DNA of 20,746 nt. It comes from a virus. The notes under the pieces are model-generated. The model did no database searches. It had not been told where the DNA came from and saw only the letters and a program-made list of their open reading frames with translations. The position numbers were made by a program, and so were the translations under genes. Below, in pieces: positions 10,224 through 20,746 of this stretch. The stretch spans positions 1-20,746 of IMG/VR virus record IMGVR_UViG_3300017733_000059. One strand, written 5' to 3'. Within the stretch, counting starts at the first letter, position 1. Every line of letters starts with the position of its first letter.

Positions 10224-10276
10224 TGTGCTTACATTTAGGAACAAACGAAATTGGTGCTTACATTGGTGCTTACATT
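10224..10276 (+). repeat. Left arm-type repeats of attP
   Basis: Copies of GGTGCTTACATT lie at 10253-10264 and 10265-10276 in perfect tandem (12-bp period), and a related TGTGCTTACATT lies at 10223-10234. They flank the tRNA-like core on its left, in the same orientation as the right-hand pair. Direct repeats of about this length, on both sides of a core, are the usual arm-type binding sites for the N-terminal domain of a tyrosine integrase. The assignment is inferred from geometry. Confidence 0.65.
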
Positions 10277-10318
10277 GAGAAAAAACAAGTAACGTCACCT
10301 TCACTTTTTTGGAAAAAA

Positions 10319-10370
10319 CGTCAGGCTCATAACCTGAAGGTCGTAGGTTCAAATCCTACCCCCGCAACCA
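10319..10370 (+). other. attP core: 3' half of initiator tRNA-fMet
   Basis: The segment matches the 3' part of a tRNA: anticodon stem-loop with loop CTCATAA (anticodon CAT) closed by TCAGG/CCTGA, a variable loop, a T arm with GGTTCAAATCC, and an acceptor strand ending CCCCGCAACCA. The A at position 72 (CGCA then A73, CCA) suggests the initiator type, which lacks the 1-72 pair, rather than the elongator. The D arm and 5' acceptor strand are absent upstream, so this is not a full gene. A phage carrying the 3' half of a host tRNA restores the gene on integration. Confidence is high because it sits between arm repeats and an integrase operon. Confidence 0.88.
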
Positions 10371-10401
10371 AAAAGTTTCATAAAATCAATTACTTAACAT
10401 T

Positions 10402-10460: not shown

Positions 10461-10484
10461 GGTGCTTACATGAGTGCTTACATT
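10461..10484 (+). repeat. Right arm-type repeats of attP
   Basis: GGTGCTTACATG (10461-10472) and AGTGCTTACATT (10473-10484) are tandem, again with a 12-bp period and the same orientation as the left arm pair. They lie about 90 bp to the right of the tRNA core. A 14-nt match to part of this unit (TGCTTACATGAGTG) also occurs at 13438-13451 inside a minus-strand gene, perhaps by chance. Confidence 0.65.
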
Positions 10485-10521
10485 GCCGTCAGGTTTATTC
10501 CATTTTTTTTCGTTTATATTC

Positions 10522-10551
10522 TTGCATTATAGGCATATATACTTATATAAT
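10522..10551 (+). promoter_or_regulatory. Promoter for the small-gene/integrase operon with operator-like motif
   Basis: TTGCAT (10522-10527) and TATAAT (10546-10551) form a sigma-70-like pair with an 18-bp spacer. The spacer contains TAGGCATATA (10530-10539), the motif that recurs at the repressor, recombination and small minus promoters. GCATATATACTTATATAAT here differs at only two positions from the sequence (read on the minus strand) of the tandem repeat next to the repressor gene. Repressor control is therefore likely (inference). Confidence 0.6.
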
Positions 10552-10585
10552 ATATGTAACATAGATTTATTGAGGAGAAAAATTA

Positions 10586-10720
10586 ATGACTTATCAAATA
10601 TACAAAACAGAAAATTGGGGTTCTGCTTGTAAATGGGCAGTATCTTTAAATGGTAAAGTTTTGGATATATTCAGAACTAAAAAAGAAGCAAAAGTTTTTG
10701 TTAATAGTTTGGAGGTGTAA
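10586..10720 (+). CDS. Small unknown protein, first gene of the int operon
   Basis: A 44-residue frame starts at ATG 10586 behind a clear GAGGAG site (10572-10577) and directly follows the promoter at 10522-10551. The product reads YKTENWGSACKWAVSLNGKV then LDIFRTKKEAKVFVNSLEV, a short beta-beta-alpha pattern like that of small DUF2188- or AP2-like proteins, with a final KKEA helix. Its stop overlaps the next start (TAATG). As the first gene of the integrase operon and of the right size it could be a directionality factor, but nothing in the sequence proves this. Confidence 0.6.
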   Translation: MTYQIYKTENWGSACKWAVSLNGKVLDIFRTKKEAKVFVNSLEV

Positions 10721-10722
10721 TG

Positions 10723-10944
10723 ATGGAAAAGTTAACTTACAAAAAAATACTTGAAGAATTATCTTGTAAATTTCATTCATGGAAATGGAAAGATTTAATT
10801 AATGATTGTTACTCAGATTATTTAGAGGAATGTGATGCTGATTGGCAGACAAATGAGATTAAATGTTTGCCATTAAAAGATTGGTTAAAAACACAAGATG
10901 CAGAAGATTTTATCATGAGAATGGTAAAAAGGGATGCAAAATAA
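10723..10944 (+). CDS. Small unknown acidic/tryptophan-containing protein
   Basis: Two adjacent ATG codons are possible (10720 and 10723). The second is better placed, 7 bp after GGAGG (10711-10715). The product of about 73 residues is mostly helical and contains CKFHSWKWKDLINDCYSDYL and DWLKTQDAEDFIMRMVKRD. No known motif was recognised. It is one of five small genes between attP and int that overlap or abut, and its stop overlaps the next ATG (TAATG). Confidence 0.6.
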   Translation: MEKLTYKKILEELSCKFHSWKWKDLINDCYSDYLEECDADWQTNEIKCLPLKDWLKTQDAEDFIMRMVKRDAK

Positions 10945-11171
10945 TGAATTACATAATTAAAGGTCAGATTAGTAAGTATCGTAATGGTCATTATTTATGT
11001 GACGAGTTAGACAATTTAGGTTGGGTGTTAGTTAAAGAAAACTCACACCCTAGAGGGTGGTCATTGGCTAGAAAAAGAAATATTTCTTTTGTTAAACATT
11101 GGTCACCAAATCTAAAAAATTTGGATAGTTATATCACTAGACATATTCATGAAATAAAGGGGGATAAGTAA
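10944..11171 (+). CDS. Small basic unknown protein
   Basis: The start is ATG 10944 in a TAATG overlap; a longer frame from 10863 lies inside the previous gene and is rejected. The 75-residue product is basic, with WVLVKENSHPRGWSLARKRN in the middle and a histidine-rich helical end (ITRHIHEIKGDK). No family was recognised. Coupled translation with both neighbours indicates that it is a real operon member. Confidence 0.58.
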   Translation: MNYIIKGQISKYRNGHYLCDELDNLGWVLVKENSHPRGWSLARKRNISFVKHWSPNLKNLDSYITRHIHEIKGDK

Positions 11172-11491
11172 TGAAAAAAATAGCTTTCATGATTTTACCA
11201 AGACAGGATAAATTTGAGGATTTATTTATGCAGTCAGTAAACATTGTGTGTGATCAACTTTTGTTACATTTTGATGGTTGCACTTATTACGAAGTCAAGG
11301 GCAGGTCTGTATCAGATCTGCACAAGACTTTATCTTGTGTCAAAATTGAAGTTGCAGTTGCAGAGAAAGATACAAAAAAATTTCTCTCTGTCTGTGAGTT
11401 TGCACAAAAGGCCATTGGTTGTAAGCAACTAATGGTTCAACTACCTAGCGGTGAAATTCAATTCTTAGATATGAGAGGATGGGTTGAGTAA
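11171..11491 (+). CDS. Unknown 106-residue protein in the int operon
   Basis: The gene starts in a TAATG overlap after a purine-rich AAAGGGGGATAAG leader. The product appears to be an alpha/beta protein: MKKIAFMILPRQ, a helix around SVNIVCDQLLLHF, then beta strands (VKIEVAVAEKDTK; KQLMVQLPSGEIQFLDM). It has four cysteines but no paired CxxC. I do not recognise it. Its place beside the integrase and in a variable small-gene block makes an accessory role such as superinfection or defence interaction possible, but this is only suggested by position. Confidence 0.58.
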   Translation: MKKIAFMILPRQDKFEDLFMQSVNIVCDQLLLHFDGCTYYEVKGRSVSDLHKTLSCVKIEVAVAEKDTKKFLSVCEFAQKAIGCKQLMVQLPSGEIQFLDMRGWVE

Positions 11492-11706
11492 TGAAAATTA
11501 AAATTGTTATAGATGTGGATATTGATGCCAAAGAATATTATGAACATTACAGGGATTATTATGATCCAGATGAGAATAAAAAAATTAAAGATTATCATCA
11601 ATTAATGAAAAATGACATGACCATGATTGCACAACATCAAATACAAGAATGGGCAGAAAAACATCAATTCAAATCTTTCAAAATGAAAAATAAATTAGTG
11701 GGGTAA
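11491..11706 (+). CDS. Small acidic/charged unknown protein upstream of int
   Basis: The start overlaps the previous stop (TAATG at 11489-11493). The 71-residue product begins with a hydrophobic beta strand (MKIKIVIDVDIDAKEYYEHY), then a Tyr/Asp-rich stretch (RDYYDPDENKKIKDY) and a helical C terminus ending in KSFKMKNKLVG. It is likely a small alpha/beta protein. There are 3 bp between its stop and the integrase start, so the two are probably co-translated. No known family was recognised. Confidence 0.58.
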   Translation: MKIKIVIDVDIDAKEYYEHYRDYYDPDENKKIKDYHQLMKNDMTMIAQHQIQEWAEKHQFKSFKMKNKLVG

Positions 11707-11709
11707 ATT

Positions 11710-12849
11710 ATGTCTAATTATTTTATTAAAAATATTTTTTCTTATAAAGATAGTAAATCAGGTAAAAGATTTGCTTTTGAGTACAAAGTAAAAGATCCAG
11801 TTACAGGTATATGGCCTAAAAGATACACAAGGAAATCAAGTACTAGTAAAAAAGATTTGATGCAGGAAAGAAATCAGATTGAGGCTATGTTAAAATCACA
11901 AGTCAAAGTTGTACAGGATGCTTTCTTTTCTGACATTGCCTTACTTGCTTTAAAAAACAGAGAAAAGTCAGTTAACAGGGAAGTATTGGGCATACGTCAC
12001 AGAACTCACCAGAATGATGTAAGGCACATAAAATTACATTTAGATCCTTATTTTGGACATAGATCAATCAAGGACATTACAACTGGTCATATTAATAATT
12101 TTATTGAAGAAATGGCCAACAAAGGTAAGTCAGCCAAATTGATCAGACATTGCATCAACACATTAAATATGGTTTTAAAATTTTCAATCAATCATGGTTA
12201 CATTGCAATTAATCCAAATGATCCTGACAAAAGAATTGAAGTTAGGGGTAAGGATAATGAAAGAGGCGGTTATTCTCATGAGCATATATCATTGCTTATT
12301 TCTGTAGATAAAAATGTTTATATGGATTGCTTCATTAAAATTTCAGCTTTTACTGGCCTGTCTGCAAATGAATTACAGGGGTTGCAATGGTCAGATATAA
12401 ATATTGAAAGCAGGGAAATAAGAGTTCAAAGAACAATCGACAATAAGGGCGGTATGCAAGACACTAAAAGTTACTTTAGAAAAAGATCACTTGGTATACC
12501 AGAGGGCATTATTAACAACTTAAGGCAATGGAAACTACAATGTAAATCATCTGTCTGGGTATTTCCAAACTTTAATGGTGAGAAGCCATTTGAGCAAAAT
12601 GCAATGAGGAAAAATTTAAAGAAGATTTGTGTCCTTGCAGGTGTTCCAGATTATGGCATAGGTGGGTTTAGAAAGTATTTTAATACATCTATGATTGGTG
12701 AAGTGCCTGATCATATTAGAAAGGCAAGAATGGGGCATAGCAAGCATTCTAAGACCGCTGAGATTAATTATACAATTGTTGATTTAGAGATGGCTAGAAG
12801 TCCGAAGCAGGTAGAAAAAATTTATAATAAAGTTATGCGGAATGAGTAA
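11710..12849 (+). CDS. int: Tyrosine integrase with degenerate catalytic arginine I
   Basis: This 379-residue protein has an N-terminal region (1-65) fitting an arm-binding domain, a SAM-like core-binding domain (about 70-170; GHINNFIEEMANKGKSAKLI), and a catalytic domain. Visible catalytic features are K253 (DTKSYFRKRS), R321 in GGFRKYF, H343 in MGHSKHSKTAEINY and nucleophile Y354. Two canonical positions differ. The first Arg of 'TGLRxxEL' is Ser218 (TGLSANELQGLQWSDI), and the His of HxxR is Gly318. The gene lies about 1.3 kb from attP, as expected for site-specific integration into the tRNA-fMet gene. Loss of arginine I would normally abolish or strongly reduce activity, so the enzyme may be a diverged active form, impaired, or carry a sequence variant. 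Confidence 0.88.
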   Translation: MSNYFIKNIFSYKDSKSGKRFAFEYKVKDPVTGIWPKRYTRKSSTSKKDLMQERNQIEAMLKSQVKVVQDAFFSDIALLALKNREKSVNREVLGIRHRTHQNDVRHIKLHLDPYFGHRSIKDITTGHINNFIEEMANKGKSAKLIRHCINTLNMVLKFSINHGYIAINPNDPDKRIEVRGKDNERGGYSHEHISLLISVDKNVYMDCFIKISAFTGLSANELQGLQWSDINIESREIRVQRTIDNKGGMQDTKSYFRKRSLGIPEGIINNLRQWKLQCKSSVWVFPNFNGEKPFEQNAMRKNLKKICVLAGVPDYGIGGFRKYFNTSMIGEVPDHIRKARMGHSKHSKTAEINYTIVDLEMARSPKQVEKIYNKVMRNE

Positions 12850-19072: not shown

Positions 19073-19528
19073 ATGCCACGAATGAATGAAGAAAAATGGA
19101 ATGAGTTTCTTAAAAGAATTGGTGAAGGTAGATCAGCTAGAGATGTATGCGGTAATGATAAGGATATGCCTTCATGGAGAATAGTTTCAATTAAATTAAA
19201 TGAAGATAGTTTGTTTGCTCAGAAGTATTCACTTGCAATGGAGAATAGAGGGCAAATATATGCCGATAAGATTAGTGACATTATTAATCAGGTAGTTGAA
19301 GGAAACTTAGATCCGAATGCAGGAAGAGTGGCCATCGATGGATTAAAGTGGATGAGTATGAAGCTTGCACCTAAGAAGTATGGAGACATTCATAGGATGG
19401 AAGTTAAGCATGAAACAAGCTATGTGGATGCATTAAAAGCTGTTGGGGAGATGGTAGATAGTACTACAACTGGTAACGCATTACGCACGCAAGGCACAGA
19501 AAAAGAAGAAAAAAAGACAATAAATTAA
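19073..19528 (+). CDS. Terminase small subunit, Sf6-type
   Basis: The 151-residue protein has an N-terminal helix-turn-helix-like part (MNEEKWNEFLKRIGEGRSAR, then DVCGNDKDMPSWRIVSIKLN) and a helical core ending RVAIDGLKWMSMKLAPKKYG. The 'R..ID..KW...KLAPKKYGD' line is the mark of Sf6-like small terminase subunits, which recognise packaging sites on phage DNA and load the large subunit. The last 35 residues are polar and disordered-looking (KEEKKTIN). It is followed by a 235-bp gap rather than the usual direct junction with terL. A ribosome site is weak (TTGGGATGAATT). Confidence 0.78.
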   Translation: MPRMNEEKWNEFLKRIGEGRSARDVCGNDKDMPSWRIVSIKLNEDSLFAQKYSLAMENRGQIYADKISDIINQVVEGNLDPNAGRVAIDGLKWMSMKLAPKKYGDIHRMEVKHETSYVDALKAVGEMVDSTTTGNALRTQGTEKEEKKTIN

Positions 19529-19763
19529 GGTCGTTACATACTAAGCCTGACGTTTATTGTAGTTAAGTGATTGATTTACTTAGATAACGTAAACTCATGT
19601 AAGCATAAATGTAAGCATGAAGGTTTTTATTTAGGGATTTTCTGTTTTACCCCCCCCCTTCGAGACAGGCAGGGGCAGGTGTAAAATATATATACCCCTC
19701 ATAATTACATTGGTATCTACATGGGGTCTCCCCTTGCCATGTTGGAGGGATAGGGGCGGACTT
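19529..19763. other. Unusual non-coding gap between terS and terL with att-like and GC-rich elements
   Basis: No convincing gene lies here. The left part holds an inverted match to the attP core edge, AAACGTCAGGCT on the minus strand (plus 19544-19555), and an inverted pair of the 12-bp arm repeat (ATGTAAGCA at 19597-19605 and 19609-19617). The right part contains a run of nine C (19650-19658), the inverted repeat GGGGTCTCCCC (19723-19733) and other G/C tracts that stand out from the AT-rich background. A packaging (cos or pac) site is possible because of the place next to both terminase genes. Confidence 0.55.
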
Positions 19764-20746
19764 TTGGATAAAGCTACTGAAACATTATTGAAATTACGAA
19801 ACGATCCAGTTTTATTTGTAGAGAAGGTATTGAATGCTACCCCCCAGAAGTGGCAGAAGAAGGCATTAAGGGGCATACAAAAAAATGATAAGGTTGCGAT
19901 CAGGTCTGGTCATGGTGTTGGCAAGACAGCCTTCCAGTCATGGTTGATTTTATGGTGGATGCTTACTCATTATCCTTGCAAGATTGCAATTACTGGAAAT
20001 ACTCAGCACCAGTTACAGGATGTTTTGTGGACTGAATTGGATAAGTGGTACAGGCAGTTGCCTGATGGCTTTAAAAGTCAGTTGGATATTAAGTCGGATA
20101 AGATTGCCTTACATGGTGCAAAAGACAGTTATGCGGTATGCAGGGTATCCAGAAGGGAAAGTCCAGAGAGTTTACAGGGTTTTCATTCTGAGAATATGCT
20201 TTTTATTTGTGAAGAGGCCTCTGGTATTCCTGATATTATATTTCAGGTTGCGGAAGGTAGTTTATCTACCGAGGGAGCAAAGGTTGTTATGTGTGGTAAC
20301 CCTACGAGGTCTGACGGATATTTTTATGAGGCCTTCCACAGCATGAGACATCGTTGGTTTACGATGAAAGTTAGTTGTTTGGAAAGTGAATATGTATCCG
20401 AGCAGTTTTTAGAGGACATGAAGTCTAAATATTCTGAAGAAAGTAATATTTGGAGGGTCAGAGTGGCAGGTGATTTTCCTGATCAGTCTGACGATGTGTT
20501 ATTGCCCATGCATTTACTTGAGACAGCTATAACGAGGGATGTAGAGCCTTCACCGACAACACCTGTCGTTTGGGGGGTTGATGTGGCCAGATACGGATCT
20601 GACAGGTCAGCCTTGGCCAAAAGAAGGGGTCAGGAGTTATTAGAGCCGATTAAGACTTATTCTGGCAAAGACATTATGGAGATGGCAGGAATTATTTTAT
20701 CCGAGTACGAGGCGGTAAGATATTCTGACAGGCCAGAGGCTATTTA
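19764..20746 (+). CDS. Terminase large subunit (3' end beyond window)
   Basis: The frame runs open from the TTG at 19764 to the window end (327 codons). No ATG occurs upstream in frame; TTG 19764 follows AGGGGCGGA and gives a normal start (TETLLKLRNDPVLFVEKVLN). The ATPase domain shows Walker A RSGHGVGKT (about 46-54), Walker B/catalytic Glu in MLFICEEASGIPD, and the coupling motif around MCGNPTRSDGYFYEAF. The nuclease domain begins with GVDVARYGSDRSAL (first Asp near 272). It packages DNA into proheads by ATP-driven translocation and cutting. The rest of the nuclease domain is missing because the window stops. TTG initiation and the 235-bp gap to terS are unusual. Confidence 0.9.
   Translation, partial: MDKATETLLKLRNDPVLFVEKVLNATPQKWQKKALRGIQKNDKVAIRSGHGVGKTAFQSWLILWWMLTHYPCKIAITGNTQHQLQDVLWTELDKWYRQLPDGFKSQLDIKSDKIALHGAKDSYAVCRVSRRESPESLQGFHSENMLFICEEASGIPDIIFQVAEGSLSTEGAKVVMCGNPTRSDGYFYEAFHSMRHRWFTMKVSCLESEYVSEQFLEDMKSKYSEESNIWRVRVAGDFPDQSDDVLLPMHLLETAITRDVEPSPTTPVVWGVDVARYGSDRSALAKRRGQELLEPIKTYSGKDIMEMAGIILSEYEAVRYSDRPEAI

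Follow-up and report, generated by a model that had tools for sequence, protein, structure and literature searches.

A conserved putative second integrase site between the terminase genes of temperate marine phages

The window analysed here, the whole of a 20,746-bp virus record, reads as a tailed, temperate phage. Its first 10.2 kb comprised structural and lysis genes and were followed by an attachment site (attP), a cargo region, and the gene of a 379-aa tyrosine recombinase integrase (Int; 11710–12849, plus strand; PF00589). After the integrase, the ssb, Erf, exonuclease, and repressor genes were arranged leftward, and then cro, RusA, a replication protein gene, terS, and terL were found. 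The gene terS (19073–19528, plus strand) encoded an Sf6-type small terminase (PF20901), while terL (19764–20744, plus strand) started directly 3′ of the terS–terL gap and was truncated by the end of the window.

Analysis of the gap revealed, in minus-strand order, a pair of arm words, 44 bp containing an IHF-consensus site, and a recombination-type core of which the end lay 3 bp from the terS stop. The arm pair TGCTTACAT-tta-TGCTTACAT (19597–19617, minus strand; units 19597–19605 and 19609–19617) had a 12-bp period, and its units are predicted binding sites of the Int N-terminal domain. The IHF-consensus site AATCAATCACTTA (WATCAANNNNTTR) was located at 19564–19576 on the minus strand. The core CGTCAGG-CTTAGTA-TGTAACG (19532–19552, minus strand) consisted of half-sites at 19546–19552 and 19532–19538 around a 7-bp spacer at 19539–19545. 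The arms were present on one side of the core only, and the right half-site TGTAACG matched the tRNA half-site CCTGAAG weakly.

The attP site carried a P arm (10226–10275, plus strand) composed of a single arm word at 10226–10234 and a pair at 10255–10263 and 10267–10275. Its core CGTCAGG-CTCATAA-CCTGAAG (10319–10339, plus strand) was situated within a 3′ fragment of tRNA-fMet (about 10319–10370), and this tRNA fragment (10303–10359) was the only match of the Rfam search. An IHF-consensus site, AATCAATTACTTA, could be recognised from the sequence between the core and the P′ arms (10384–10396, plus strand). The P′ arm (10463–10493, plus strand) had a pair at 10463–10471 and 10475–10483, followed in register by CGTCAGG at 10487–10493, and was the same in all attPs listed. 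In the contig L033, a complete tRNA-Met(cat) was joined to the P′ arm, which represents an integrated junction. The core half-site word, as CGT[C/T]AGG, was also seen after the P′ pair in arm register in L194, L198, and L199; on the P′ side it sits just upstream of the int operon's promoter-like sequence, and some lineages have it after the outer P pair too.

The first-pass annotation of this DNA had reported repeated units and a shared 12-nt word at attP and in the gap. Both were confirmed by the sequence, with the attP pair at 10255/10267 on the plus strand, the gap pair on the minus strand, and the 12-mer AAACGTCAGGCT at 19544–19555 (minus) and 10316–10327 (plus). The conserved part of the 12-mer was CGTCAGG, one half of the full core CGTCAGG-N7-TGTAACG; this full core, the IHF-consensus site, and the second arm pair with CGTCAGG on the P′ side of attP (10463–10493) are additions to that annotation. 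The pair pattern TGCTTACATNNNTGCTTACAT (TGCTTACAT-N3-TGCTTACAT) occurred three times in the record, at attP (10255 and 10463, plus strand) and in the gap (19597, minus strand), and the reversed-pattern control for the pair gave no match in the record. In 300 dinucleotide shuffles, the single arm word occurred with a mean of 0.32, whereas neither the pair nor the 12-mer appeared in any shuffle. The core-like pattern was confined to the attP core and the gap within the window, with 0.015 expected per shuffled window. The annotated similarity of arm-to-core spacing also held, since, counted from the first base of the proximal arm, the core lay 53 bp away in the gap and 52 bp away at attP. Likewise, the opposite orientation of the two sites, about 9 kb apart, was seen in the window, and the orientation was the same in the attP-bearing relatives examined.

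Two Int sequences, TerS, and TerL served as queries in the scans for relatives, which provided about 200 loci. No nucleotide relative was found in the phage database, and C72C1 came from a protein search. A prophage in a cellular host was sought among 150 relatives, and one genome contig only, L117, was obtained. Among the related marine phage contigs with Int, every terS–terL gap had the same layout with a lineage-specific arm word, so the joint motif noticed in the first pass withstood comparison at this locus. The arm words of the gaps were TGCTTACAT, TACCAACCA, GTGGCTAAC, GTGATAA, TAGCACCA, AGTTACCCA, GTGGCGATAC, and GTGGCAACAC. For each of the eight word classes that could be tested on a single contig, the gap and the attP of the same phage carried an identical word, and a permutation analysis revealed that one of 40,320 gap–attP assignments, the true one, reached the observed 37 matching sites, the contigs of one lineage being non-independent. 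When 11 contigs were scanned for pairs, these were present at attP and in the gap only in 10; in L068, the attP-side pair alone passed and the gap pair was imperfect. The distance between the proximal arm and the core was 39–41 or 51–53 bp, one helical turn apart, in attP and gap alike. The arm pair was kept in nearly all gap sites, with none clear in L145. The IHF site was perfect in L074 also and weak or absent in other lineages; it is lineage-limited and was dropped as a general feature of gap sites. Chance was excluded by the shuffles and the permutation. Concerted evolution by exchange between attP and the gap was considered and rejected, as the two have the words alone in common while the inter-arm spacers and flanks differ.

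All 49 unique gap regions contained TCAGG and a right half-site at exactly 7 bp; the search pattern for the core set the spacer at 7, yet no gap of an Int contig was found without the core pattern. The right halves were TAACG/TAACA or the tRNA-like CCTGAAG, CCTGAAA, and CCTGACN, of which CCTGAAG/CCTGACN belong to L176 and L150/L175. In L080, both halves of the core were changed symmetrically (TGTCAGG..CCTAACA). Sixteen gap spacers could be distinguished; none was identical to the attP/attB overlap CTCATAA, from which they differed at 2–5 of 7 bases. The gap is therefore not a second attP for tRNA-fMet and, by lambda rules, is unlikely to be a partner of attP. Two copies of the gap carried by the DNA of one phage would, however, necessarily have identical spacers. 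Exchange between phages at the core was also considered and rejected, with four mosaic pairs only and scattered breakpoints.

To identify the reader of the arm word, closely related integrases of the GTGGCTAAY class (14 sequences) and the GTGAT[A/T]AAT class (14 sequences) were compared. Fourteen alignment columns fully separated the two word classes, and all were located at 11–48, with none elsewhere in the integrase. The predicted structure comprised strands at 10–14, 18–27, and 40–44 and a helix at 47–64, and the class-separating columns lie in this beta-sheet domain; residues about 1–64, with the three strands and the helix, would be the arm-binding domain. This layout is that of the arm-binding domains of such integrases, and the whole integrase model matched the Tn1549 and lambda integrases. 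No ORF common to the lineages was found between the P′ arm/attP and int, the 218-bp interval of L030 having only a 41-aa ORF, and a linked Xis/excisionase is thus unlikely to read the arm word. By these sequence comparisons, the fit of the arm words to the arm domain of Int is maintained by selection. In the integrase clade, the catalytic Arg I is replaced by Ser/Ala (TGLSANELQGL) and the box II His by Gly; the integrated junction of L033 exists nonetheless. Since the canonical residues are missing, lambda chemistry and overlap rules may not fully hold, and tolerance of spacer mismatch by the integrase, if real, would weaken the argument drawn from the spacer.

The presence of the site followed that of Int. 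The site was found in 15 of 15 contigs that had both Int and an entire terS–terL gap, and it was absent from all six with no detectable Int (C72C1, which is complete and circular; G014, a 33-kb contig; and four contigs with 8–10 kb upstream of terL), these counts being phylogenetically non-independent. In the lineage of G001 (L119) and L069, the tRNA core and the P′ arms of attP were gone, while an intact int, one arm pair, and the gap site were kept. L111 belongs with this lineage and was seen on the Int side only.

Based on sequence comparison, the gap site can be regarded with high confidence as a selected, functional second integrase site, at which the integrase very probably has a second job; it is not a relic, a chance resemblance, or a simple inversion partner of attP. 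Among the options offered by the first-pass annotation, an integrase-binding site was borne out by the co-variation of the arm word with attP and the Int N-terminal domain, while a relic and segment inversion were not. It seems likely that the integrase has two conserved jobs, namely integration at tRNA-fMet through attP and use of a self-compatible site in the terminase gap, which would be recombined or clamped by the enzyme at the packaging start, the genome thereby being circularised, resolved, or licensed. The arm specificity of the enzyme, attP, and the gap site would then evolve as one unit, with the G001 enzyme persisting with the gap site after the decay of attP.

The fullest statement of this explanation, a dedicated Int site, attL-like and recombining with itself beside the packaging start, is offered tentatively, at not quite an even chance. 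In its layout, the gap would correspond to a lambda-type attachment half-site, with two arm words, an IHF site in this lineage, and inverted half-sites around a 7-bp overlap. Int, joined by IHF in some lineages, may occupy the gap arms and the core at once in an attL-like complex, and the site may recombine with another copy of itself next to the packaging start. Such recombination could, after infection, convert virion DNA with terminal redundancy into circles, or it could resolve multimers, like Cre/loxP near P1 pac. Self-recombination appears the likeliest use because the spacer never equals attP/attB, yet is identical between the copies of one genome. The exact 7-bp core also favours it over a regulatory gate, while a position between the two terminase genes is compatible with either. 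Against self-recombination, the phage has exonuclease and Erf-type annealing genes that could close terminally redundant DNA into circles with no need of Int, the arms are on one side only, and TGTAACG is a weak match to CCTGAAG.

Sf6 and P22 are headful packagers, and the pac site of P22 lies within terS (PMC9611059). With an Sf6-type TerS and a pac placed in terS as in P22, the gap site would fall just inside the packaging start. We infer headful packaging of the window phage from the TerS family alone, and the position of pac is hypothetical. Five of 35 TerL-bearing contigs (L131, L133, L114, L115, and L116) began 438–488 bp upstream of terL, inside terS. This pile-up of contig ends was set aside as evidence for pac, as the ends are ambiguous: they could be packaging-related or could mark a conserved block at which assembly broke off.

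A gate that works by binding only is a real possibility, although it falls clearly below an even chance. Abundant Int, together with IHF, would occupy the gap and block terS-to-terL and late transcription, or packaging from a nearby pac, with no strand exchange, and this could take place during the establishment of lysogeny or before excision. A gate is consistent with the position of the site, which lies precisely in the terS–terL interval, ahead of the terL start and the conserved hairpins, as well as with the one-armed layout and the co-occurrence of the site with Int, and a spacer incompatible with attP/attB would guard against misintegration. However, an operator needs arm sites alone, so a gate leaves the 7-bp-spaced full core in 49 of 49 gap regions unexplained, and no promoter stands out in the terS–terL gap, where promoter-like matches occurred at the shuffle rate.

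It is improbable that another protein, an excisionase or a regulator, binds the attP arms and the gap. Proteins with a dual use that bind att arms and another site exist, P2 Cox and 186 Apl among them, and the word pairs are direct repeats. However, the word is present on both arms of attP, the word classes separate on Int N-terminal residues only, and the interval between attP and int provides no common candidate gene, as in L030 with its 41-aa ORF.

Inversion of the 10.3–19.6 kb segment between attP and the gap, which would switch the early-gene segment and had been suggested in the first pass, is very unlikely. The two sites are in opposite orientation in the window and in those relatives with attP that were examined, which would suit it, as would an integrase without Arg I, since IntDOT, which also lacks Arg I, tolerates overlap mismatch. 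However, all 16 spacer types differ from the attP overlap, and a single orientation was observed in all attP- and gap-bearing contigs examined, with none inverted. The same very low probability is given to a decoy for Int, as suggested earlier, or a point of entry for satellites and other elements. A decoy could titrate Int through its additional high-affinity arms, but titration requires no core and does not explain a complete, spacing-exact one; an entry site could draw on the extra ORF of about 470 bp in the gaps of L066, L067, L072, and L108, but this insert lies between the hairpins, away from the core. A relic of a rearranged att region or a chance resemblance, which has nothing more than the short word length in its favour, is negligible in view of the shuffle rates, the co-variation across lineages, and a core conserved across lineages with TerS only about 37% identical.

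The preferred dedicated Int site resembles the lambda-type attL/attR half-site of heterobivalent tyrosine integrases (PMC4880445) in its arm words for the Int N-terminal domain, its inverted half-sites, its 7-bp overlap, and, in the window lineage, an IHF site between arms and core. Of the lambda-type features, arm-type sites could be recognised by sequence inference (eight word classes; Int columns 11–48 only), and inverted half-sites around an overlap of 6–8 bp were found in 49 of 49 gap regions. In contrast to a lambda-type half-site, the gap site is neither at a host junction nor beside int, lies 9 kb from attP, and coexists with a complete attP in the genome; its overlap is incompatible with attP/attB, with at least two mismatches to CTCATAA in 16 spacers. 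Lambda itself was considered as a second example and rejected, as arm words are not clustered outside attP and nu1 and A overlap, leaving no gap.

In phage P1, loxP lies beside pac, and Cre circularises the DNA and resolves dimers. The inferred likeness is recombination between two copies near the packaging start, with a spacer free to drift. The gap site, as known here from its sequence, differs in that it would use the integration enzyme and arm sites, with IHF in some lineages, and not a stand-alone recombinase; a lox-like recombinase works without arm sites, whereas nearly all gap sites keep the arm pair. An invertible segment would have a compatible overlap and both orientations, whereas here the overlap differs and one orientation was seen in the contigs examined. 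Satellites embedded in the late genes of helper prophages also place tyrosine integrase sites in the late-gene region, terminase included (PMC10111431), but their site serves the satellite integrase and interrupts a gene, whereas the gap site serves the phage's own integrase and is intergenic and unoccupied. Among the open-licence papers searched, none was found that described an integrase site between terminase genes.

Phage integrases are usually seen as one-place enzymes acting at attP, and here a distant site at the packaging locus tracks the DNA-reading domain of the integrase. This match, kept over many marine phage lineages, would tie a lysogeny enzyme to packaging, circularisation, or late-gene control. 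Such a match is a reason to look beyond attP for integrase arm words in further temperate phages, and the site is directly testable.

Outside the Int site, the gap contained a poly-C/poly-G hairpin, CCCC-N10-14-AGGGGGGG (19650–19679), which was kept in the gap-bearing relatives and in the int-less C72C1 and is a possible packaging or expression signal. An inverted repeat at 19717–19756 was located just 5′ of terL, and base pairing is possible between its CCCCU loop and AGGGG, the Shine-Dalgarno sequence. As judged by eye, its pattern also occurs in near relatives with an altered stem sequence. The additional, moron-like ORF in the gaps of L066, L067, L072, and L108 was on the minus strand and had a promoter-like sequence of its own; it was flanked by the poly-G hairpin and the terL-proximal repeat. 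The interval between the P′ arm and int (10494–11709 in the window; also L030, L051, L052, L057, L043, and L021) was a hypervariable cargo cassette of 218–2481 bp. In several lineages, successive genes of this cassette were linked by a GGAGCAAACTAATG junction, which combines a Shine-Dalgarno sequence with an overlapping stop and start and was present in up to four copies, one of them directly before int.
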